A stretch of 36,000 nucleotides of DNA from a virus: IMG/VR virus record IMGVR_UViG_3300018080_000080, positions 1 through 36,000 of that record. The stretch is one strand, 5' to 3'. The notes beneath the pieces are model-generated. The model searched no databases, was not told the origin of the DNA, and saw only the letters and a program-made list of their open reading frames with translations. This document shows positions 8,987 to 27,988 of this stretch, in pieces (position 1 is the first letter of the stretch; each line of letters opens with the position of its first letter). A program made the position numbers and the translations under genes.

Positions 8987-8990
8987 AAAA

Positions 8991-9013
8991 AAACACTCTA
9001 CTCGAGTGCTTTT
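8991..9013. terminator. Bidirectional intrinsic terminator between convergent genes
   Basis: CACTC (8994-8998) pairs with GAGTG (9004-9008) around a five-base loop. Rightward the stem is followed by CTTTT; leftward it is followed by a run of nine T residues. It separates the end of the rightward holin-like gene from the end of the leftward HTH gene, whose TAG stop lies in the loop, and should stop transcripts from both sides. Confidence 0.75.
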
Positions 9014-9174
9014 AGTTCCATATCCAAGGCTTTTAATATACCTTCAAGTCTTTTATCTCCCTTAGTGAAATAATCGTAAATCGTTGATCGTGGGATTCCC
9101 GTACGCTCTGAAATTTCACTGTAAGTTAAGCCCAACTGTTTACGTCGGGCTTGTAGGGTGTTTTGTGTTTTCAT
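8998..9174 (-). CDS. HTH transcriptional regulator, cassette 1
   Basis: 58 residues read leftward from an ATG at 9174. The sequence starts MKTQNTLQARRK and contains a helix-turn-helix with the recognition helix IPRSTIYDYF. In the first 44 residues, 40 are identical to the regulator at 12287-12586, and the DNA is also very similar, so the two are recent paralogues or have undergone gene conversion. This copy stops about 14 residues after the shared block, whereas the other has a longer C-terminal extension. It is the second gene of a two-gene leftward operon whose promoter carries a conserved palindrome, so autoregulation is likely (inference). Confidence 0.85.
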   Translation of the reverse strand: MKTQNTLQARRKQLGLTYSEISERTGIPRSTIYDYFTKGDKRLEGILKALDMELKALE

Positions 9175-9199
9175 ATTTTTTTACTAAAAAAATTATAAC

Positions 9200-9409
9200 C
9201 TATGCTTTTTTTAATTTATTAGCAATATCTTGAGGCACATCATACTCTGATATTAATCTAAATTCACCATCAATATAGCAAGCCGTCATTATACCAAACT
9301 GATCTGATCCATTAACCCTACTAATTTTACGTTTAGTCTCTAAATCAATTATAACATCAATAGTTTTAAAATCTTCTGTAGTTGCGCCGTTTGTATTTAC
9401 TTTAATCAT
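9200..9409 (-). CDS. Small hypothetical protein, first gene of cassette 1 leftward operon
   Basis: 69 residues. The start at 9409 is well supported: the 5' leader, including an AAAAGGAATT stretch just before the ATG, is nearly identical to the leader of the gene ending at 12583. The protein looks like a small alpha/beta protein (IDVIIDLETKRKISRV, then a short hydrophobic core) with a Lys-rich helical end. It shows no clear similarity to the gene in the matching position of cassette 2. It might modulate the regulator or be a host-takeover factor; the function is unknown. It is followed after 25 bases by the HTH gene. Confidence 0.75.
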   Translation of the reverse strand: MIKVNTNGATTEDFKTIDVIIDLETKRKISRVNGSDQFGIMTACYIDGEFRLISEYDVPQDIANKLKKA

Positions 9410-9440
9410 AATTCCTTTTTTTTAATTGTTATCGTTGGTA

Positions 9441-9472
9441 CAAATATACGGCAACATATCCGATATACCAAA
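9441..9472 (-). promoter_or_regulatory. Bacteroidota-type promoter, cassette 1 leftward
   Basis: On the minus strand TTTG (9472-9469), 20 bases, then TATATTTG (9448-9441). This is the Bacteroidota -33/-7 pattern. It drives the small gene at 9409 and the HTH gene. The same promoter, with the same spacing, occurs at 12850-12819. Confidence 0.85.
9456..9466. promoter_or_regulatory. Palindromic operator candidate, cassette 1
   Basis: ATATC-C-GATAT is a perfect 11-base inverted repeat with a one-base centre. It lies inside the spacer between the -33 and -7 boxes of the leftward promoter, 7 bases into the spacer, exactly as in cassette 2. A bound protein would block RNA polymerase there. The paralogous HTH proteins are the obvious candidates to bind it; this is inference. 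Confidence 0.7.
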
Positions 9473-9508
9473 CATTTATACAACTTTTTTTAAATTATTT
9501 TTAGTTTT

Positions 9509-9554
9509 GTAGGTTTTATAGGGGTTGTATGATGAAAGTTTTTTTGTAAATTTG
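9509..9554 (+). promoter_or_regulatory. Rightward promoter of the Amidase_2 gene
   Basis: An 18-base block (9509-9526, containing TTTTATAGGGG) is identical to 12887-12904. It is followed by a -7 box TAAATTTG (9547-9554). The ATG at 9559 starts 5 bases after the box, so the transcript should have no leader or one of a base or two. The distance from the 18-base block to the ATG is 33 bases in both cassettes. Confidence 0.75.
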
Positions 9555-9558
9555 GTGT

Positions 9559-9966
9559 ATGAGAAAAATAAAACACATAGTGTGCCATTGTACAGCTACC
9601 GATCAAGACGCAAAAGTTGACGCTATTCTTAACTATTGGCGAACAAAATTAGGATGGAAGAACCCTGGCTACCATTTTTTAATCGAAGAAAACGGAAAAA
9701 TCCACAATTTACAGCCATTAGAGAAACCCTCAAATGGTGTGCGTGGTTACAACTCTACTTCTATACATATAAGCTACATTGGAGGTAAAGATAAAGACGA
9801 CCGTACAGACGCACAGAAAAGGTCAATGCTTGCCGTTGTAATGACTTTAAGTGCTATGTATCCAAACGCAATTATTCAAGGGCATAGAGACTTTCCTAAC
9901 GTTAATAAAAGTTGCCCAAGGTTTGACGCTATTGAGGAGTTTAGTCATTATCAACCACAAGTTTAA
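9559..9966 (+). CDS. N-acetylmuramoyl-L-alanine amidase, Amidase_2 / T7 lysozyme-like (endolysin 1)
   Basis: 135 residues, the length of a single Amidase_2 catalytic domain. It cleaves the bond between MurNAc and the L-alanine of the peptidoglycan stem. Zinc ligands in the T7 lysozyme arrangement are visible: His10 (VCHCTAT), His109 (GHRDF) and Cys119 (KSCPRFD), with Tyr38 near the active site. There is no signal peptide or cell-wall-binding domain, so it would need a holin to reach the wall. Its ATG follows the -7 box by only 5 bases. The last 26 bases overlap the convergent gene ending at 9941. A second, unrelated amidase is encoded at 12937. Confidence 0.93.
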   Translation: MRKIKHIVCHCTATDQDAKVDAILNYWRTKLGWKNPGYHFLIEENGKIHNLQPLEKPSNGVRGYNSTSIHISYIGGKDKDDRTDAQKRSMLAVVMTLSAMYPNAIIQGHRDFPNVNKSCPRFDAIEEFSHYQPQV

Positions 9967-10165
9967 ACGTACAGAATTCAATAGGTTTCCTGCACGTATA
10001 AACACCTTGTGGAGTTATATTATTTTCCTTTGCATATTCCTTAACCGACTTCAACTGAAGTAACTCTCGAATTAATTGCAATATTTCAATCAAATCTTCA
10101 TTCGATAATTCTCCACCGTAGAAGTCTAGTTCTATGCTTTCCTTGTATTTGTTGGGTTTTTCCAT
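9941..10165 (-). CDS. Small hypothetical protein with a possible DNA-binding helix
   Basis: 74 residues, leftward, last gene of the operon that starts at 12786. It overlaps the 3' end of the amidase gene by 26 bases. The N-terminal half is acidic and helical. The segment KSVKEYAKENNITPQGVYTC has the look of a short helix-turn-helix of the kind used in small excisionase-like proteins, but the expected basic recognition residues are few. The function is unknown and the DNA-binding idea is weak. Confidence 0.65.
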   Translation of the reverse strand: MEKPNKYKESIELDFYGGELSNEDLIEILQLIRELLQLKSVKEYAKENNITPQGVYTCRKPIEFCTFKLVVDND

Positions 10166-10181
10166 TATTTAAAGTTTTAAA

Positions 10182-10203
10182 GTGTTGTTAGCCATGAGTT
10201 ACC
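10182..10203. repeat. 22-bp imperfect direct repeat, copy 1
   Basis: This 22-base block matches 12263-12284 at 19 of 22 positions (shared core ATGAGTTACC). Both copies lie just 3' of a leftward gene and overlap or abut its stop codon. The two copies bracket a block of five leftward genes. A third related site, GGTGGGTAAC at 10742-10751, is inverted relative to this one (the sequence here continues as GTTACCCACC). The role is unknown; it could be a recombination footprint. Confidence 0.55.
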
Positions 10204-10702
10204 CACCATTTAACATAAGTAGGTTCAACTTTTGCCACGCCTTATTGGTTTCGCTATGTGGATGGTTTTTACTCATCAAGCTTGTGCAAAAAAGGTCGTG
10301 TTCTTTTCGATACATTTCAAAAAGCCTTTTATTGTATTCTTTAGATTGATTTACATTGGCAATCCTATCACATATTTTTACAATAGTAGCTTTCCAGTTG
10401 CCTTGTATTTTTGGGTAAGTCTTTGCTTTTCGCTCATTTCTGTTTCTTCCTAATTCGTCAGTAACACAATAAACTATTTCGGCAACTTCCTCACCAAAGG
10501 CTTTTTTAAGGTCATTAAATGAAAGTTCGGTATCTTCCAAGGTGTCGTGCAATGCACAAGCAACAACAATGCTTTCATCAAAACCTAGTTCTTCAGCTAT
10601 CTTTACTACTTGTCTAATGTGGTAGATATAAGGGTATATATCGTAAGTTTGGTTATTATGTGCTTTTTCAGCCACCAATAAGGCTCTTTCTTTGTTATTC
10701 AT
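10199..10702 (-). CDS. HD-domain protein, probable small alarmone hydrolase ((p)ppGpp 3'-pyrophosphohydrolase-like)
   Basis: 167 residues, the length of a stand-alone hydrolase domain of the RelA/SpoT or MESH1 type. Key residues are His28, His52-Asp53 (LHDTLEDT), Glu56-Asp57, Asp112 and Asn116 (CDRIAN). The spacing fits the RSH hydrolase motifs: 24 residues between the first two His, four between HD and ED, four between Asp and Asn. Such enzymes remove pyrophosphate from (p)ppGpp and would lower the host stringent response. No synthetase domain is present. It lies in the leftward regulatory operon and is flanked by inverted GGTGGGTAAC motifs. Another HD phosphohydrolase substrate is possible. 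Confidence 0.82.
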   Translation of the reverse strand: MNNKERALLVAEKAHNNQTYDIYPYIYHIRQVVKIAEELGFDESIVVACALHDTLEDTELSFNDLKKAFGEEVAEIVYCVTDELGRNRNERKAKTYPKIQGNWKATIVKICDRIANVNQSKEYNKRLFEMYRKEHDLFCTSLMSKNHPHSETNKAWQKLNLLMLNGG

Positions 10703-10733
10703 AAGTTCTGTATTTATCTATTAATTTTTGGTT

Positions 10734-10800
10734 AAAAAAACGGTGGGTAACAACAGCTAAAAAGCATACCCTTCGGGATACGCATTTTAGCCAAACCGTT
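10734..10800 (-). terminator. Long imperfect hairpin followed by a T-run (terminator or structured spacer)
   Basis: AACGGT (10739-10744) pairs with ACCGTT (10795-10800). Inside, GCTAAAA (10756-10762) pairs with TTTTAGC (10785-10791), and a CCTTCGGG loop sits at the top. On the minus strand the structure ends in seven T residues, so it could terminate leftward transcripts before the HD gene. The asymmetric internal loop and the GGTGGGTAAC motif inside it are unusual for a plain terminator. Confidence 0.6.
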
Positions 10801-10808
10801 AGGCGCAA

Positions 10809-11147
10809 TTAACCCCCGAAGCATTCTTTAATCAATTTAATATCTCTGTCTGAAATCTCCTTTAGTTCTTTAGAAAATTTCACCCTACCTTCTTTTGTTA
10901 ATCCATATCCGTTATAAGGTGGATAAAAATCCTCTTCGCTTCCAATCATTATTGATTTGTATTTAATAAGTCCTTGCTTCTTTAATGATTTTATATGCTT
11001 ATCTACCTGATACCTGCTTGTTTCTAAAAGTGAAGCAATATTAGAAGGTGAAATTATTCCTACGCCTTGCCAATCTTCTGCCTTGTCTATTATATTGTCA
11101 GTCGTTTTGAAGTGCCATGTATGAATATCTTTATCTGTTTTTTTCAT
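10809..11147 (-). CDS. Winged-helix DNA-binding protein
   Basis: 112 residues. The region from about residue 30 to 65 (IISPSNIASLLETSRYQVDKHIKSLKKQGLI, in parts) reads as a winged helix: a short helix, a recognition helix beginning SRYQVDKHI, then a strand-turn wing with YKS. The C-terminus has GYGLTKEGRVKFSKEL, typical of MarR- or PadR-like small regulators. It overlaps the upstream gene by four bases and belongs to the leftward operon from the cassette 2 promoter. It probably regulates phage or host genes; the target is unknown. Confidence 0.72.
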   Translation of the reverse strand: MKKTDKDIHTWHFKTTDNIIDKAEDWQGVGIISPSNIASLLETSRYQVDKHIKSLKKQGLIKYKSIMIGSEEDFYPPYNGYGLTKEGRVKFSKELKEISDRDIKLIKECFGG

Positions 11148-11530
11148 ACCGTCAAAATATTAAATTCATTCTTATTGCATTTCTTTGCCTCAATCCGATT
11201 AACAGCATAGTAATTAATTAACCTTAACCGTTCGATGAGCTTGTAATTTGCAAACCCATCTATTTCGGATTGTAGCTTTTTCTTAGCGTTAATTAACGTG
11301 GTCCTATCTCTATTAAACTTTTCTGCAAATTGCATATCACTAATACCGTTAATGTAATGCGATAACCACACAACCCACTTCCAATTTACTATCTCATTTG
11401 AGCCTCTTCGTAAGTGTAGAGCATTAATAGCGTTTTTAGGAACATTTAAGTTAATGGACTTTTCAAGTCTTTCAGAAGAAACACGTTCCCAACCGATAGC
11501 GTCCTTGTAGTGTTGTCGTTCGTTTTTCAT
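11144..11530 (-). CDS. Protein with DnaA domain IV-like helix-turn-helix
   Basis: 128 residues. The segment ISDMQFAEKFNRDRTTLINAKKKL matches in pattern the DNA-binding domain IV of DnaA (a helix, then a basic F-x-R-D-x-T-T motif, then a helix). DnaA uses this to bind origin boxes. No ATPase domain is present. Phage proteins of this kind may bind DnaA-box-like sites in phage or host DNA; this is inference. It overlaps both neighbours by four bases, so it is co-translated with them. Confidence 0.65.
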   Translation of the reverse strand: MKNERQHYKDAIGWERVSSERLEKSINLNVPKNAINALHLRRGSNEIVNWKWVVWLSHYINGISDMQFAEKFNRDRTTLINAKKKLQSEIDGFANYKLIERLRLINYYAVNRIEAKKCNKNEFNILTV

Positions 11531-11868
11531 TTTCCTTGAAGTTTTCCATTCAACTTATCAGCTATTTCTGAGAACGTGCCTCTTCTAACTAGCATCTCAT
11601 TGCTTGGGTTATTCATGTTATTTATTAGCTCAATCTCTTTAAGGCAATATTCGTAAACGCCTTGAATCTCTACTGCGAAATCCTTCAGCAATTCAGCTGG
11701 CGACTTCTTAACATGATAGCTATTTTCCTTAATCGGTGTTAGAGATGCATAAGGCACTGTTCTGATTTCGCCATCAATAGAGATCTTTGCCGTTCTTGAA
11801 TGTGGGTTAATTTTCGTTACCGTTACTACTTGACCCTTGAAGGTCGCTTTGTCATTTGCTTGTATCAT
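11527..11868 (-). CDS. Hypothetical protein with SH3/KOW-like N-terminus
   Basis: 113 residues. The first 50 residues form a run of short strands with a turn pattern (KATFKGQVVTVTKINPHSRT) that looks like a small SH3-like barrel. The rest is helical and charged. No catalytic motif is visible. It overlaps the genes before and after by four bases. The function is unknown; it moves with the regulatory operon. Confidence 0.65.
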   Translation of the reverse strand: MIQANDKATFKGQVVTVTKINPHSRTAKISIDGEIRTVPYASLTPIKENSYHVKKSPAELLKDFAVEIQGVYEYCLKEIELINNMNNPSNEMLVRRGTFSEIADKLNGKLQGK

Positions 11869-12233
11869 AATTTTTTTGTTAAAGTTAATTCCTCTCTTGT
11901 TAGTGCAAACATTAGGTTTTGAAGGTGGTGGACGTGTTTGATTAATATATTCTTGTGTGATAAATAAACATTACCACTATTGGAAATATCAAATTTAATT
12001 TTACTTTTTGAATACTGAGCTAATACACCTCTCTTTGTGCAATTAACTTCTTGAAACCCTAACTCAATCAACTTTTCCTCTGTTAGTGGTATTGGTCTAA
12101 ATCCGTGAGCTTTTGGATATTGAATTATTTTAGCTAAGTCACCCACTGAAATTTTATTTTCAACCCACTCACTTATCTGTGGTTCAAGGTAATATTCAAC
12201 CCAATTCCCTATCCTTAATTCATTTGCTTTCAT
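11865..12233 (-). CDS. Conserved Bacteroidota phage hypothetical protein (MKANELRIGNWV family)
   Basis: 122 residues. The opening MKANELRIGNWVEY, the middle PIPLTEEKLIELGF and the end HHLQNLMFALTREELT are hallmarks of a small protein family that I know as very common in phages and prophages of Bacteroidota, with no established function. It has no signal peptide or membrane segment. Its 5' leader carries a 22-base repeat shared with 10182-10203. It is the third gene of the cassette 2 leftward operon. Confidence 0.8.
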   Translation of the reverse strand: MKANELRIGNWVEYYLEPQISEWVENKISVGDLAKIIQYPKAHGFRPIPLTEEKLIELGFQEVNCTKRGVLAQYSKSKIKFDISNSGNVYLSHKNILIKHVHHLQNLMFALTREELTLTKKL

Positions 12234-12262
12234 AATTGTTTTGTTTTTATTTACGTTTATAG

Positions 12263-12284
12263 GTGTGGTTGGCTATGAGTTACC
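12263..12284. repeat. 22-bp imperfect direct repeat, copy 2
   Basis: Same orientation as the copy at 10182-10203, with 19 of 22 bases identical. It lies between the HTH gene stop (12287) and the next leftward gene start (12233). Confidence 0.55.
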
Positions 12285-12286
12285 AA

Positions 12287-12586
12287 CTATAAATTGCTTA
12301 AATATTCGTCTGTAAACTTATCTAAGGTAGTTCCTTCTAAGTATAAATTTCTACCTTCCAACTCTTCGCCATAAGCAATTAACTGTTCCCTTTTGTTGCT
12401 AACATCTGGTTTAGAGCAGTTCTTTATCTCCATACCCAACTCATCCAGAACCTTCTCAAGGCGTACATCTCCTTTACTAAAATAGTCGTAAATCGTTGAT
12501 CGTGGTATTCCTGTACGCTCTGAAATCTCCGTGTAAGTTAAGCCCAACTCTTTCCGTCGGGCTTGTAAGGTGTTTTGTGTTTTCAT
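12287..12586 (-). CDS. HTH transcriptional regulator, cassette 2
   Basis: 99 residues. The first 44 residues are 40/44 identical to the regulator at 8998-9174, including the recognition helix IPRSTIYDYF. The 41-residue or so C-terminal extension, absent from the other copy, is acidic and could mediate dimerisation or binding to another protein. It overlaps the upstream small gene by four bases. With the same operator palindrome in both promoters, the two regulators probably bind the same site, alone or as heterodimers; this is inference. Confidence 0.85.
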   Translation of the reverse strand: MKTQNTLQARRKELGLTYTEISERTGIPRSTIYDYFSKGDVRLEKVLDELGMEIKNCSKPDVSNKREQLIAYGEELEGRNLYLEGTTLDKFTDEYLSNL

Positions 12587-12786
12587 ACTATATAATATTC
12601 ATCTGTTTTTAAAAATTGATTCCAATCATTAGCCGTCCAATGTTCAGCACTTTCAAACTCTTCTTTACTCATTTGAATAGTTCTGTATTTTGTTTTTGAA
12701 CCGTCCGTATGTGTTTTACGAATAGTGAATGTTCGCTTTGATTGGTTTGCTTTAACCTCGATTGTTTCTCCTGTAATTGTTTTCAT
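12583..12786 (-). CDS. Small hypothetical protein, first gene of cassette 2 leftward operon
   Basis: 67 residues from the ATG at 12786. A longer reading frame to 12849 exists, but it would start within the promoter. The start at 12786 is preceded by the same leader (AAAAGGAATT before ATG) as the gene starting at 9409. The protein is basic and beta-rich in its first half (MKTITGETIEVKANQSKRT) and ends in EYYIV. It appears unrelated to its positional counterpart in cassette 1. The function is unknown. Confidence 0.75.
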   Translation of the reverse strand: MKTITGETIEVKANQSKRTFTIRKTHTDGSKTKYRTIQMSKEEFESAEHWTANDWNQFLKTDEYYIV

Positions 12787-12818
12787 AATTCCTTTTTTTT
12801 TAATTGTTATCGTTGACA

Positions 12819-12850
12819 CAAATATACATACACATATCCGATATTCCAAA
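12819..12850 (-). promoter_or_regulatory. Bacteroidota-type promoter, cassette 2 leftward
   Basis: On the minus strand TTTG (12850-12847), 20 bases, then TATATTTG (12826-12819). It should drive the whole leftward operon from 12786 down to 9941. The spacing and 5' leader match the cassette 1 promoter. Confidence 0.85.
12834..12844. promoter_or_regulatory. Palindromic operator candidate, cassette 2
   Basis: Second copy of ATATC-C-GATAT, in the same position within the -33/-7 spacer as the copy at 9456-9466. The flanking bases differ, but the palindrome is fully conserved. Confidence 0.7.
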
Positions 12851-12886
12851 TATTTTAACAGTTATTTTTAAATTAAATTTTGCTTA

Positions 12887-12932
12887 GTAGGTTTTATAGG
12901 GGTTACACGACTAATATTTTTTTGTATTTTTG
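12887..12932 (+). promoter_or_regulatory. Rightward promoter of the Amidase_3 gene
   Basis: Contains the 18-base block shared with 9509-9526, then a -7 box TATTTTTG (12925-12932), 5 bases before the ATG at 12937. The predicted transcript is leaderless or nearly so, as in cassette 1. Confidence 0.75.
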
Positions 12933-12936
12933 AAAC

Positions 12937-13554
12937 ATGAACATAATATTAGACGCTGGCCACGGTGGTATTGACCCAAAAACACAACTTTACGTAACTA
13001 AAGGTAAACGATCCCTTAGACCTATTGACGGTAAATGGTACTATGAAGGAGTAGAAAACCGATTAATCGTTAAAGAATGGGCTACTATACTTGAGAATCT
13101 AGGGCATAAAGTATTTTACACGGTTGACCCAAACGACTACAGAGATGTTAGCTTAACAGAACGTGTACGAATAGCGAATGAAATTAACAAAGAACACAAT
13201 GCGTTTTTAATTTCTGTTCATTCGAACGGTTTCCATAAAGAAACGGCAAACGGTCATGAGGTTTTTACTTGTCCTGACTATAATGATTCGGATAGATTTG
13301 CTAAATTATGGGGGGATAGGTACCGTGTAAAGTTTCCTGACCATGCCTACAGATATGGAAAAAAACGAGCAAATGATAAGGAGGAGCTATTTACTATCAT
13401 TGCAGGTAATAGGCACGTAAAACCTAACTACAATAGCATATTAATAGAGCTTGCGTTTCACACAAACCCAGATGATGTGCGTTTACTTAGATCGTGGGAC
13501 TATCGCATGAAAACAGGAATTTTACTCGCTCAAACAGCTAATCATTTTCAATAA
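12937..13554 (+). CDS. N-acetylmuramoyl-L-alanine amidase, Amidase_3 (endolysin 2)
   Basis: 205 residues, one Amidase_3 domain. It cleaves the same amide bond as the Amidase_2 enzyme at 9559 but uses a different fold. Zinc ligands and catalytic Glu are in the expected order: His9 (DAGHGG), Glu40 (GVENRLI), His95 (SVHSNG) and Glu171 (LIELAF). There is no signal peptide and no binding domain. It starts the rightward lysis operon amidase - phosphoesterase - spanin. Two amidases of different folds in one small phage are unusual. One may act in virion entry or at a different time from the other. Confidence 0.93.
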   Translation: MNIILDAGHGGIDPKTQLYVTKGKRSLRPIDGKWYYEGVENRLIVKEWATILENLGHKVFYTVDPNDYRDVSLTERVRIANEINKEHNAFLISVHSNGFHKETANGHEVFTCPDYNDSDRFAKLWGDRYRVKFPDHAYRYGKKRANDKEELFTIIAGNRHVKPNYNSILIELAFHTNPDDVRLLRSWDYRMKTGILLAQTANHFQ

Positions 13555-15028: not shown

Positions 15029-17212
15029 ATGAAGTACAATGAATTTTTAGACACAAAGAAAAAGTCTTTTATTGAGAGTGGATTTGATGTCGACACAAAG
15101 AAACTAAACAAAAACTTATTTGATTTTCAAAAATATAGCGTAAAAACTGCGCTAAATAAGGGTAGATTCGCATTATTTTTTGACTGTGGATTAGGTAAGA
15201 CTCTTATGCAACTTTCATGGGCTGAGGCTGTTTATAATGAAACCAATAAAAAAGTTTTAATATTAGCCCCTTTAGCTGTTGTTGATCAAACTAAAGATGA
15301 AGCTGTTAAATTCGGTATAAACTTAGAATGTTTTGAAATAACCAACTACGACCAACTTAAAAATATTAAAAATATGGATCAATATTCGGGTGTAGTTTTA
15401 GATGAAAGCTCAATATTAAAAGGTCGTGACGGAAAACTATCAAGACTAATTATTGAAACATTCAAACAAACGCCTTATAAACTAGCGTGTACAGCTACAC
15501 CCTCCCCAAATGATCACATGGAGTTAGGTCAGCATAGTGAGTTTCTAGGCGCTATGAGTTATCTTGAAATGCTTGCGATGTATTTTGTTCATGATGGAGG
15601 AGAAACCTCTAAATGGAGACTAAGAAAGCACGCAAAAGATCCGTTTTGGAATTATGTATGTACTTGGTCAATGGCTTGTGACAAACCTCAAACATTAGGA
15701 TTTGATTCTGATGGATATAACTTGCCTGAAATTGAGTTTATAGAGCATATTATACCAGTAGAAAACAATACTGATACGCTGTTTGGCGATGTTGCTGTTA
15801 GTGCAACAGATTTACATAAAGACTTAAAAAGATCATTTGATAAAAGGCTAGATAAAACGATAGAACTTGTTAACTCAAATGATAATCAATGGATAGTTTG
15901 GGGGCTTAGAAATACTGAAACTGATACTCTCGAAAAGCATTTAAAAGACGCTGTTAACGTTCAAGGTTCAGATAAACCTGATTTTAAAGCAAAACATTTA
16001 AATGGATTTGCAAAGGGCAAATTTAAAACATTGATAACTAAAACGTCAATCGCTTCATTTGGTATGAATTATCAAAATTGTCATCAAATGGTTTTTATGT
16101 CTTATGATTTTAAATTTGAAGCATTTTATCAAGCGGTCAGAAGGTGTTATCGTTTTGGGCAAAAACATAAAGTTAAGGTTCATATCATGGTTCCTGAAAG
16201 CCAAACAAATGTAAGGAAGTCGATATTGCAAAAACAGCAAAGGCATTTTGAAATGATTCAAGAAATGTCTAAATATTCAAGTCAATCAGATTACAAAACA
16301 AACAAATCAAAATTTATGATAAAAGAAAAGGAAGTAAAAACAGAAAACTACTATTTATTAAATGGTGACTGCGTGCAAGAAACAAAAAAGTTAGATAATG
16401 ATTCAGTAGACCTAACTGTATTTAGCCCTCCATTTGCTGAATTATATGTTTATTCAGATAAAGAGGAGGATATGGGAAATGTAGCAAACTATAAAGAGTT
16501 TGAAAAACATTTTAAATTTTTGATACCTGAGATAAAAAGAGTACTAAAACCAGGGAGAATATGCGCTATTCACTGCATGGACTTGCCTATTCAAAAAGGT
16601 AAAGAGGGTTTTATTGGGCTTAGAGACTTTAGCGGCATGCTTGTTCAGTGGTTTACTGAAATGGGCTTTATATACCATGCAAGAACGACAATATGGAAAA
16701 ACCCAGTAACTGAAATGCAAAGAACTAAAGCAGTAGGATTGCTTCATAAAACTATAAAAAAAGATAGCGTTATGAGTAGAGTTGGAATACCTGATTATAT
16801 TTTGTTTTTTAGAAACGAGGGGGATAATATAACGCCTATTACTCATCAAGCTGAAGACAGTGATTCTCCTGATTACCTACCAGTTGATTTATGGCAAAAA
16901 TATGCATCTCCTGTTTGGAATGATATAGATTATAGCAGAACTTTACAATACAGGTCAGGTAGAGATGGAAATGACGAAAAACATATCTGCCCTTTACAGT
17001 TAGATACTATTGAAAGGATATTACATTTGTATTCTAATGAAGGAGAAACAGTTTTCAGTCCTTTTGGTGGTATCGGTTCAGAGGGGTTTAAAGCTATTAA
17101 AATGGGTCGTAAAAGTATATCAATAGAATTAAAAGAGAGCTATTTTAAATTAAATGCTGCCAACCATAAAGCTATTGATTTAGAAAAGAAATCTACATTA
17201 ACATTATTTTAA
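15029..17212 (+). CDS. SNF2-like helicase fused to a DNA N6/N4 methyltransferase
   Basis: 727 residues in two parts. Residues 1-430 are a superfamily 2, SNF2-like translocase: Walker A DCGLGKT (about 52-58), DEx motif LDESS (about 124-128), TATPSPN (about 155) and a motif VI-like block RRCYRFGQ (about 371-378). Residues 440-725 are a methyltransferase in beta-class order: NGDC, then catalytic SPPF (about 465), then the AdoMet-binding SPFGGIGS near the C-terminus (about 676). The likely job is methylation of phage DNA coupled to translocation, for protection from host restriction. No restriction nuclease domain is present. It has its own promoter. Confidence 0.9.
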   Translation: MKYNEFLDTKKKSFIESGFDVDTKKLNKNLFDFQKYSVKTALNKGRFALFFDCGLGKTLMQLSWAEAVYNETNKKVLILAPLAVVDQTKDEAVKFGINLECFEITNYDQLKNIKNMDQYSGVVLDESSILKGRDGKLSRLIIETFKQTPYKLACTATPSPNDHMELGQHSEFLGAMSYLEMLAMYFVHDGGETSKWRLRKHAKDPFWNYVCTWSMACDKPQTLGFDSDGYNLPEIEFIEHIIPVENNTDTLFGDVAVSATDLHKDLKRSFDKRLDKTIELVNSNDNQWIVWGLRNTETDTLEKHLKDAVNVQGSDKPDFKAKHLNGFAKGKFKTLITKTSIASFGMNYQNCHQMVFMSYDFKFEAFYQAVRRCYRFGQKHKVKVHIMVPESQTNVRKSILQKQQRHFEMIQEMSKYSSQSDYKTNKSKFMIKEKEVKTENYYLLNGDCVQETKKLDNDSVDLTVFSPPFAELYVYSDKEEDMGNVANYKEFEKHFKFLIPEIKRVLKPGRICAIHCMDLPIQKGKEGFIGLRDFSGMLVQWFTEMGFIYHARTTIWKNPVTEMQRTKAVGLLHKTIKKDSVMSRVGIPDYILFFRNEGDNITPITHQAEDSDSPDYLPVDLWQKYASPVWNDIDYSRTLQYRSGRDGNDEKHICPLQLDTIERILHLYSNEGETVFSPFGGIGSEGFKAIKMGRKSISIELKESYFKLNAANHKAIDLEKKSTLTLF

Positions 17213-17213
17213 T

Positions 17214-17384
17214 ATGAATCTAAAAAAAGAAATGCAGTCGGTAGGTATAACAGCCTATCGACTTAGTAAAATAAGTGGTATAAGCCAAAGCACTATATCT
17301 AAAATAAAGAGAGGGTTACAAGTGCCTAAGGTTACAACTATGCAAAAAATTAAAAACGGAATAAATCAATTTAAAAAACAGTAG
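17214..17384 (+). CDS. Very small HTH protein
   Basis: 56 residues, one base after the helicase-methyltransferase stop. It begins MNLKKEMQSVGITAYRLSK and continues ISGISQSTISKIKRG, a classic XRE-type helix-turn-helix with helix 3 SQSTISKIKRG. It has only the DNA-binding core and a short basic tail. It probably regulates the early region or the modification gene upstream. The tight spacing (one base on each side) supports a real gene in the same operon. Confidence 0.75.
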   Translation: MNLKKEMQSVGITAYRLSKISGISQSTISKIKRGLQVPKVTTMQKIKNGINQFKKQ

Positions 17385-25165: not shown

Positions 25166-25447
25166 ATGGATGGTCGTAAAAATAACGGTGGAGCACGTAA
25201 AGGAGCTGGTAGAAAACCAAAAAATGATGAACAAGAACTTTTGGAAAAACTATCTAAGTATAGCGATACTGCACACGAAAAACTAAAAGATGCAGTAGAG
25301 GATGGCGAGCAATGGGCAATTAAAATGTACTTTGAATATTTCTACGGAAAACCAAACCAAACCATTAACCACAAGAACAACGGAGAAGGATTTGAAACTA
25401 CTACTTTAACTAAAGAACAACAAGATAAGTTGATTGACAAGTTATAA
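25166..25447 (+). CDS. terS: Small terminase subunit candidate
   Basis: 93 residues, directly before and overlapping the large terminase by 14 bases. The N-terminus GGARKGAGRKPK is a basic, Gly-rich DNA-binding stretch found in many short small-terminase proteins. The rest is helical and charged, with KMYFEYFYGKPNQ, similar to phage proteins in this position. It would recognise the packaging site. Assignment rests on position and the basic N-terminus. Confidence 0.75.
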   Translation: MDGRKNNGGARKGAGRKPKNDEQELLEKLSKYSDTAHEKLKDAVEDGEQWAIKMYFEYFYGKPNQTINHKNNGEGFETTTLTKEQQDKLIDKL

Positions 25448-26774
25448 AGAAATAGAGCCTATTTTGAGAGCAGGAGCACGAGATAATTTCGTGCTTTTTT
25501 GCTATTATTACGAGTTTGATTTTATGAAGTCAAGACCTTATCTAAAGGAGGTCGCACAAGCATTTCAAGATATTGCAGACGGTAAAATTAAAACACTATC
25601 AGTATCATTCCCTCCACGTTTCGGAAAGTCTTATATTACCTCTTTATTTTGTGCATGGATTTTAGGCAAGTACCCGAATGAGTCAGTCATGCGGAATACA
25701 TGCACCGCTACACTAGCCCGAAAACTATCATACGACACTAGAGAAATATTAAAGCACGAAAAATTCACAGCTGTATTCCCAGATGTTCGACTTTCAGATG
25801 ATAAGTCAGCAGTTGACGGTTGGAACACTAACCACGCAAAGCAAGTGAGTTATTTTTGTGCTGGTGTTGGTGGTACTATTATAGGTTTTGGAGCTTCTAA
25901 GTTAGCTATAACAGATGACTTATTTAAGTCAATGGAGGACGCAATGAGCGAAACCATACGAGAGAAAACGCACTCATGGAAAGAAGCAACGCATGATTCA
26001 AGAAAAGAAACTGGTTGCGCTGAAATAGATATTGGTACTCGTTGGACTCGAGACGATGTGATCGGTAAAAATATGCAAGAAGGTTATTATGATAAGTCAA
26101 TCATTGTTCCAGCATTAGATGAAGAGGGTAATTCAACATGTGAAGCAGTAATGACAACCGATGAATACCATTTAAAGCGTAAAAAGACACGTGAAGAGAT
26201 ATGGCTCGCTGAATACATGCAACAGCCAGTAGACATCAAAGGACGTATGTTTGAGGGGTTAAAAACCTTTACAGATGTTGAACACGTGCGTAATAATTCA
26301 CAAGGTGCATTAGCTTATATTGACGTTGCTGATGAGGGTAAGGATTATTTATGTATGGTATTAGGACATTTAATAGACAGTCAAATATATATTACTGATG
26401 TGGTTTACACAAAGGCAAATATAGACGTTACTATTCCAACGTGTGCATCTATTTTAAACAACAATAAGGTGCGTTTTTGTCAGATAGAAACGAACGGAAT
26501 GGGTGCGCCTTTCTTAAAAATGCTAAGAAAAGAAACTAAGACTAAGTTAATAGGCATCACTAACAAAACCAATAAGCAAACGAGAATCATAATGAACAGT
26601 CAAATGGTTCTTAATAACTTCTATTTTTTAGATAAAAAAGAGGGTAATTACTATCAATATTTGAACGGTTTAAAAACCTATTCTAAAGAGGGTAAGAATA
26701 TAAATGACGACGCCCCAGATGCAACTACAGGATTAGCACTATTCTATCAGGTTCAATTTCCTAAACTGTTTTAA
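25434..26774 (+). CDS. terL: Terminase large subunit (ATPase-nuclease)
   Basis: 446 residues starting at TTG 25434, inside the small subunit gene; no ATG is available before about residue 31, and homologous N-termini need this region. The ATPase has Walker A PPRFGKS (about 59-65) and Walker B LAITDD (about 156-161). The RNase H-like nuclease has AYIDVADEG (about 294) and the late DDAPDA motif (about 425), with the conserved Asp residues. It drives DNA into the prohead and cuts the concatemer. The TAA stop shares two bases with the portal gene's stop on the other strand. Confidence 0.93.
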   Translation: MTSYKEIEPILRAGARDNFVLFCYYYEFDFMKSRPYLKEVAQAFQDIADGKIKTLSVSFPPRFGKSYITSLFCAWILGKYPNESVMRNTCTATLARKLSYDTREILKHEKFTAVFPDVRLSDDKSAVDGWNTNHAKQVSYFCAGVGGTIIGFGASKLAITDDLFKSMEDAMSETIREKTHSWKEATHDSRKETGCAEIDIGTRWTRDDVIGKNMQEGYYDKSIIVPALDEEGNSTCEAVMTTDEYHLKRKKTREEIWLAEYMQQPVDIKGRMFEGLKTFTDVEHVRNNSQGALAYIDVADEGKDYLCMVLGHLIDSQIYITDVVYTKANIDVTIPTCASILNNNKVRFCQIETNGMGAPFLKMLRKETKTKLIGITNKTNKQTRIIMNSQMVLNNFYFLDKKEGNYYQYLNGLKTYSKEGKNINDDAPDATTGLALFYQVQFPKLF

Positions 26775-27988
26775 ATACCTATCATTTCACGGTACTCATC
26801 AGTATCAATAACACCGTCACGAAGTAAGATAGAAAGTTTTTCAGCTTCTATTTTATCTGCTTGCGCCTTATGCCTATCGTCTATTTGTAGAGCCGAAACA
26901 TGGCTGAATGATGCCTTCATGTGTATTCCTATTTTATCAAGTCCCCACTGATTAGTAAGTTCTTTATAAATATCATTAGATGCTGGAATGATAGTAGAGT
27001 TATACGCTTGCTTTTCTCCAGCTTCAGCATTTGCGAACGTAGTGCCTTTTGCGAGAACGTTACCGAACATAAACTCATTAAGTCCAAACGCATCAATGAT
27101 ACGCACAAAGTCAGCGTGATTCTCTTCATACAGCATCAAGTCCTTTGTTGGGTAGCTCATAGGTTGCCACTTGAAAGCCTTATCGGTTATAATTATCTCA
27201 TCTTTGTGCCTTTTCTTAATATCATCACGTTGAGCCTTTACGTCTGTTTCATCGAGTGCTTGTGAGTTCAAACCATCTCCAACGTCTGCGGATAAAATAC
27301 CTAGACTAAACATATTTTTTAACAAAACATTTCTCTTTTCGTATGCCTTTTCGATGTTAGATAGTGGGTATTTCAAAGCGTCTACACGGCTAACGGTGTC
27401 CATTAGATTAATACCGTCCGAATCAAACATATAAACAACTTGCTCGGGTTTCAAACTCTCAAACGTGCCTTTGTTGTCGATAGGAATGTCTATTTTATCA
27501 ATCACTCCAGATCGTTCGATTTGCTTATATCCTTTCTTATTTGCATGTATTTTCACGTTATTGAATGCTATCGGAACAGCTATGTTTCTATTTCCAAAAG
27601 TTCCAGCGGGCGAGTAAATTAAAGCATTACCAGTAACACACTTATTTATTTCTACCATTTCAATAACCTTAGACCATGACAGCATTGGGTTAGGTCTGTT
27701 CAGCAAATCCTTTAGCCAGTTTAGTTCACTAGGTAAATCACTCATCAAAATTTTATTACCGTCTTCATCACAGAAATAGGGTTTACCATTACTAACCATT
27801 TTAGCACGTCTATTAACTACTGCTTGAAGCTCAGGAATGCGACCATATAAGTTCCAATAGTTAGTCGTATTGATCCAACTCGGTGCTGTATCTCCTATGG
27901 ATTGTAATGTGTAATAGTTATTATTTCGTGAAAAAGCATTAAAACGTCCGAAAAGGTTAAATGCGTCATTGAGAATATTATAAGCCAT
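26771..27988 (-). CDS. Portal protein, encoded on the opposite strand
   Basis: 405 residues. The sequence shows phage portal features: an N-terminal stretch with NYWNLYGRIPELQAVVNRRA, a core with VTGNALIYSP, then LSNIEKAYEKRNVLLKNMF and a C-terminal FGLNEFMFGN with a helical end. The portal is the 12-mer ring through which DNA enters the head. It lies in the usual place between terminase and protease, but leftward, while all neighbours run rightward. It has its own divergent promoter at 28020-28013. The stop overlaps the terminase stop, with no terminator between. Confidence 0.88.
   Translation of the reverse strand: MAYNILNDAFNLFGRFNAFSRNNNYYTLQSIGDTAPSWINTTNYWNLYGRIPELQAVVNRRAKMVSNGKPYFCDEDGNKILMSDLPSELNWLKDLLNRPNPMLSWSKVIEMVEINKCVTGNALIYSPAGTFGNRNIAVPIAFNNVKIHANKKGYKQIERSGVIDKIDIPIDNKGTFESLKPEQVVYMFDSDGINLMDTVSRVDALKYPLSNIEKAYEKRNVLLKNMFSLGILSADVGDGLNSQALDETDVKAQRDDIKKRHKDEIIITDKAFKWQPMSYPTKDLMLYEENHADFVRIIDAFGLNEFMFGNVLAKGTTFANAEAGEKQAYNSTIIPASNDIYKELTNQWGLDKIGIHMKASFSHVSALQIDDRHKAQADKIEAEKLSILLRDGVIDTDEYREMIGI

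Follow-up and report, generated by a model that had tools for sequence, protein, structure and literature searches.

Duplicated cassettes in a phage genome resemble autorepressed accessory operons set head-to-head with unrelated lysin genes

The virus DNA analyzed here, positions 1–36,000 of IMG/VR record IMGVR_UViG_3300018080_000080 (36,000 nucleotides; hereafter the window), carries the same divergent regulatory cassette twice, at 8998–9570 (cassette 1) and 12287–12948 (cassette 2). In both, a leftward operon of a small gene and a helix-turn-helix (HTH) gene lies head-to-head with a rightward lysin gene. The control regions are similar while the cargo is unrelated, which supports the suggestion of an earlier note on this DNA that one regulatory frame was duplicated with exchanged cargo. 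With moderate confidence, we interpret the cassettes as two paralogous, autorepressed accessory (moron) operons of acr-aca-like type, each placed beside a pre-existing lysin. A 123-bp repeat is common to both ends of the record, which therefore looks like a complete phage genome; genes for tail, head, packaging, replication, and lysis are recognizable, and the promoters are of Bacteroidota type.

The duplicated segments are the longest two repeats found by a repeat search of the whole window. Alignment, as proposed by the earlier note, gives 78% identity over 155 nt for the divergent promoter region (9416–9570 and 12794–12948) and 88% over 132 nt for the start of the HTH gene (9044–9175 and 12456–12587), where 115 of 132 nt and 40 of the first 44 residues are identical. 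The promoter regions reach a Smith–Waterman score of 88, while none of 200 dinucleotide shuffles exceeds 26, and share the 5′ leader, the −33 and −7 boxes with 20-nt spacing, a palindrome, and an 18-bp block (18/18 identical) that ends 32 nt before each amidase ATG. Promoter elements are conserved at 68 of 68 positions and the remaining positions at 44 of 75, a comparison that is partly circular as some elements were picked for their conservation. In contrast, the small genes S1 and S2 align no better than shuffled sequences (score 16.5, shuffle maximum 23), and the amidases belong to different folds, Amidase_2 and Amidase_3 (Table 1). The shared elements and the lack of similarity in the cargo had been described from the sequence before and hold up here, with two corrections: read leftward, the small gene precedes the HTH gene, and S2 starts at the ATG at 12786, the longer TTG-initiated open reading frame extending into the promoter. 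S1 and HTH1 are separated by 25 nt in cassette 1, whereas the two genes of cassette 2 overlap.

The leftward promoters match the Bacteroidota sigma-A consensus (−33 TTTG / −7 TAHHTTTG, last G at −5; PMC6847099) in full at both boxes in both cassettes. Between these boxes, at about −30 to −20, lies the palindrome ATATCSGATAT, roughly 100 bp away from the lysin start. This position, inside the leftward core promoter and remote from the lysin, makes repression of their own operons the most likely function of the HTH proteins. The HTH genes differ by 10 synonymous and 4 replacement codons, indicating purifying selection on the N-terminus; residues 20–36 are identical, with an S19T exchange directly before them. 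As operators and these residues are the same, HTH1 and HTH2 are each expected to repress the two operons alike. Flavobacterium “Moomin” phages match the leader and leftward promoter of cassette 1 at 74–76%, but this match reflects a generic strong promoter only, without palindrome or block, and was discarded. Likewise, operator-pattern matches at two loci (L102, L103) were judged to be chance, as they fall within coding DNA or at its margin and no cassette surrounds them.

On the rightward side, the −7 box matches the consensus in full, but the −33 element reads only GTTG or GTTA and is weak, as at activator-dependent promoters. Since the −7 boxes end four bases before the ATG, the A of the start codon is the predicted +1 and the lysin transcripts would be leaderless; leaderless messages account for 5.5% of mapped mRNAs in one flavobacterium (PMC9723704). 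Across the −7 box and the following gap, the consensus positions are all kept between the cassettes (6/6) and the free positions are all changed (6/6; Fisher p 0.002). Conservation limited to consensus positions argues that the rightward promoter is used, and by this footprint the lysin promoters look real.

The 18-bp block is centered at −41.5 from the lysin start and at −81.5 from the leftward start. Escherichia coli CRP usually has its class II sites at −41.5 and its class I sites at −61.5 or farther from the start (PMC2859248). Judged by this geometry, the block looks like a bidirectional activator site for both promoters. A search for this promoter block in other genomes, also put forward in the earlier note, recovered exact copies in two further viral contigs, L002 and L003. 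No lysin is recognizable to the right of the block in either contig, L002 ending soon after. In L002, 28 identical bases are shared with the window and the block stands at −81.5 of a leftward promoter that drives a small gene, which is followed by portal, protease, and capsid genes; these head genes are distantly related to those of the window (protease 51%). In L003, divergent small genes flank the block, which stands at −71.5 and thus closer by one helical turn; no other similarity to the window is seen, and the match is short enough to leave some probability of a chance occurrence. The link of the block with leftward small-gene promoters is thus no weaker than its link with lysins. An exact search of the GTDB r220 genome collection with the 21-mer form of the block gave no match, and the block region has none in cultured phages or plasmids; with these searches for exact forms empty, a common host chromosomal site is unlikely. 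As a separate observation, CTGATACAG-type palindromes flank the block on both sides in the divergent promoter region of L003 (1990–2090).

The cargo genes belong to families that, by their sequence relatives, appear to move among mobile elements. S1 has relatives in two mobilizable plasmids of Aliarcobacter butzleri (37% identity over 65 amino acids, E 8e-7), where the gene sits in a row of small hypothetical genes flanked by ParB and an SprT-like gene; no convincing relative was detected in the phage records searched. Counter-defence genes can occur in plasmid leading regions (PMC11541004). S2 belongs to a family of phage proteins of 55–80 amino acids (including loci L105–L115). Between two of these loci, L106 and L108, a 92% DNA match spans just the promoter and the S2 gene within unrelated surroundings, so that S2 is a moron there. 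A further S2 relative, 52% identical, lies between the pilot and Rep (replication) genes of a microvirus (OR148996; L104, 2947–3189), and the family is thus common to tailed phages and a microvirus. The predicted S2 fold comprises three strands and two helices (predicted local distance difference test score 78), while the S1 model was of poor quality and unfit for fold search. By analogy with acr-aca operons, S1 and S2 most likely act in counter-defence or in another form of host takeover. The idea that S2 is a PC4-like DNA-binding protein was dismissed, as neither sequence nor fold searches gave such a match, and its Foldseek and VIA-align matches, including weak AcrF1 rows (Z 3.5), fall under the tool's stated noise level.

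The lysins look like pre-existing neighbors because their relatives sit in ordinary operons. Among 34 amidase 1 loci, the amidase mostly comes directly after a gene of the same orientation, with an overlap or a short gap; leftward open reading frames occupy this gap only in L019, and they show no tblastn similarity to the HTH or small genes. Amidase 2 relatives in Flavobacterium phage lotta8-2 and Cellulophaga phage phi40:1 likewise stand in ordinary operons without a cassette. The closest relative, L032 (one of the 34), has collinear tail genes with 30–43% protein identity and lacks cassette 1 between the same neighbors. There, 60 bp are left between the upstream gene and the amidase, in the order bidirectional terminator, HTH1 remnant, T-run, −7 box, and amidase. 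The remnant, RLEGILKALK, contains nine C-terminal codons of HTH1 (RLEGILKAL) with synonymous differences; cassette 1 was thus most likely once present and then deleted, apparently between T-tracts. The L032 contig stops before the position of cassette 2. L032 matches the window at 83% on the DNA level over a stretch that starts at the rightward −7 box and takes in amidase 1 and the gene after it. A query with a tail protein found no relatives. As an observation in its own right, amidase 1 and the gene at 9941–10165 (window 9540–10201, L032 5982–6643) combine this 83% DNA identity with the 30–43% protein identity of the neighboring tail genes, which marks the segment as a recently exchanged module.

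Table 1. Coordinates of the cassette features in the window.
Feature	Position	Strand	Details
HTH1, 58 aa, HTH_3 repressor-like	8998..9174	-	PF01381 E 1.3e-7
Bidirectional terminator hairpin	8989..9013	.	covers last HTH1 codons
S1, 69 aa, small gene of cassette 1	9200..9409	-	
S1 5′ leader, 27 nt	9410..9436	-	AACGATAACAATTAAAAAAAAGGAATT; predicted +1 at 9436; 21/21 aligned bases as cassette 2
Leftward promoter, cassette 1	9441..9472	-	−7 TATATTTG 9441-9448; −33 TTTG 9469-9472; 20-nt spacer
Palindrome, candidate HTH operator	9456..9466	.	ATATC-C-GATAT (ATATCCGATAT)
18-bp block	9509..9526	.	GTAGGTTTTATAGGGGTT
Rightward −7 box	9547..9554	+	TAAATTTG
Amidase_2 lysin (amidase 1)	9559..9966	+	PF01510 E 2e-17; phrog_822 E 3e-41
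HTH2, 99 aa, HTH_3, longer C-terminus	12287..12586	-	PF01381 E 3.6e-7
S2, 67 aa, small gene of cassette 2	12583..12786	-	ATGA overlap with HTH2
S2 5′ leader, 28 nt	12787..12814	-	predicted +1 at 12814
Leftward promoter, cassette 2	12819..12850	-	−7 TATATTTG; −33 TTTG; 20-nt spacer
Palindrome, candidate HTH operator	12834..12844	.	ATATCCGATAT
18-bp block	12887..12904	.	geometry as in cassette 1
Rightward −7 box	12925..12932	+	TATTTTTG
Amidase_3 lysin (amidase 2)	12937..13554	+	PF01520 E 4e-23; phrog_435 E 2e-21

In the mechanism we propose, a strong host sigma-A promoter would fire leftward into S1 or S2 and then the HTH_3 repressor gene. An HTH dimer on the palindrome between −33 and −7 would subsequently shut the operon off, restricting expression to an early burst. 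With each repressor acting on both operons, one regulon would control two cargoes. Rightward, each lysin would be transcribed from its own leaderless promoter with the weak −33, and the block would serve bidirectional activation of lysin and operon by a further factor.

Several points weigh against an acr-aca-like, autorepressed operon. The putative counter-defence role of S1 and S2 follows by analogy. The fold search with S2 gave no convincing structural match, and neither small protein shows homology to solved inhibitors. Sequence searches linked the cassette genes to no known Acr or Aca; among the Aca chains of the PDB, with which the HTH proteins were compared, the best hit is Aca3 with E 0.83. 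Moreover, S2 relatives in other phages lack an HTH partner, and no intact cassette was found in any relative, so that the evidence for the architecture comes from a single genome and from remnants. Apparent HTH relatives from peptide-seeded scans of viral and bacterial contigs (L004–L007, L101) proved to be unrelated generic HTH genes.

The duplicated frame might instead be a lysin control module that times both lysins together, with the HTH proteins or a block-binding factor as the switch, a reading we consider possible but unlikely. Each lysin is served by a footprinted leaderless promoter with the identical block at the CRP class II position, and the amidases occur in relatives without such an arrangement. 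Yet the palindrome sits in the opposite promoter, L002 and L003 have the block in leftward geometry with no visible lysin beside it, and L032 retains the amidase without the cassette. Given the position of the palindrome, the deletion in L032, and the amidase relatives that lack a cassette, the earlier proposal that competing HTH regulators govern the lysins is not supported. The accompanying idea of two lysins under one control fares better in part: it may hold through the shared promoter and the block at −41.5, but not through the HTH palindrome, and common control of the lysins through the block is therefore possible. Alternatively, the region could be a passive relic that homology-driven shuffling copied, without joint control. 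The loss of cassette 1 in L032 through T-tracts and the recent exchange of the amidase 1 segment fit this explanation, but the full retention of promoter elements, partly circular as this measure is, and the purifying selection on the HTH codons render it improbable.

A type II toxin–antitoxin system, in which the small gene encodes the toxin and the HTH protein acts as antitoxin and autorepressor, would account for two small co-transcribed genes and for their toxin-first order, as in HigBA, where the toxin gene comes first in the operon. HipB antitoxins are among the closest solved relatives of the HTH proteins as well. However, neither S1 nor S2 has a hit to a toxin family in Pfam, NCBIfam, or PADLOC, and a free toxin is hard to reconcile with the solitary S2 genes of other phages and of a 6-kb microvirus. 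Further, no HipA kinase gene adjoins the HTH genes, whose partners of 69 and 67 amino acids lack such a domain, in contrast to HipBA. We thus regard this reading, too, as improbable. Even less credence is due to a lysogeny-type immunity switch in which the HTH protein represses lytic genes in the manner of cI/Cro: an HTH gene to one side of divergent promoters recalls such a switch, but no integrase was detected among the gene products scanned, which covered part of the genes, the genes on the lytic side are lysins rather than early genes, and two near-identical repressors would not confer distinct immunity. Both the toxin–antitoxin and the lysogeny-switch readings are weaker than the acr-aca-like one.

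If the acr-aca-like reading is true, HTH gene and operator offer a handle for counter-defence genes in Bacteroidota phages, a group of genes little described in the literature we found, and S1 and S2 are immediate candidates. If the block also controls the lysins, lysis and accessory genes are linked by regulation. A bolder extension, which we consider distinctly unlikely, is that one short site activates a leaderless lysin in one direction and a self-limited counter-defence operon in the other, and is carried twice with different cargo on both sides. Lysis and takeover would then answer to one signal, and the recurrence of the site in other uncultured phages would mark anti-host genes.

Elsewhere in the window, a third small HTH_3 gene (56 amino acids, 17214–17384, plus strand) is a candidate regulator with no visible relation to HTH1 or HTH2. 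It directly follows a gene that joins a DNA helicase and a DNA methyltransferase in a single protein (15029–17212, plus strand). Between the cassettes, a minus-strand gene (10199–10702) encodes a RelA/SpoT-type HD hydrolase domain without synthetase. A portal-like gene (26771–27988, minus strand) is opposite in strand to terminase (25434–26774), protease (28138), and capsid (28934), unlike in L002, where portal, protease, and capsid all point the same way; no strong inverted repeat was detected at its flanks.

Among known systems, the cassettes compare most closely to acr-aca operons (Aca1–Aca10; PMC9410906, PMC7648647). Both cassettes have a small variable gene followed by a short co-directional HTH repressor-like gene, and their inverted repeat falls within the core promoter, the position also seen for the Aca families analyzed (PMC9410906). 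With 58 amino acids and an HTH_3 domain, HTH1 has the size and class of known Acas, and in both systems one regulator type accompanies several unrelated, mobile small genes. In contrast, the HTH proteins of the window are not recognizably of the Aca families with solved structures, the phage carries two copies, both arranged head-to-head with lysin genes, and an extra 18-bp block would serve both directions. The cassettes thus appear to work like acr-aca operons; membership is not claimed, as the HTH proteins are not identified as a known Aca. Phage moron cassettes similarly have their own promoter and terminator (in cassette 1, the leftward promoter and the terminator hairpin) and are inserted between genes adjacent in relatives, and they can be lost, as in L032, but those of the window carry their own repressor, and their control region also contains the promoter of the neighboring lysin. 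CRP class I/II promoters (PMC2859248) likewise combine one site at −41.5 of one promoter with a phased upstream position of the other, but GTAGGTTTTATAGGGGTT has no known binder, and the window has Bacteroidota sigma-A promoters and predicted leaderless lysin transcripts. The earlier statement that no system of this kind had been described was too strong, since acr-aca operons already have the left half of the architecture (PMC9410906). The operons resemble a known type, and what is new here is mainly the duplication, the coupling to lysins, and the recurring block.

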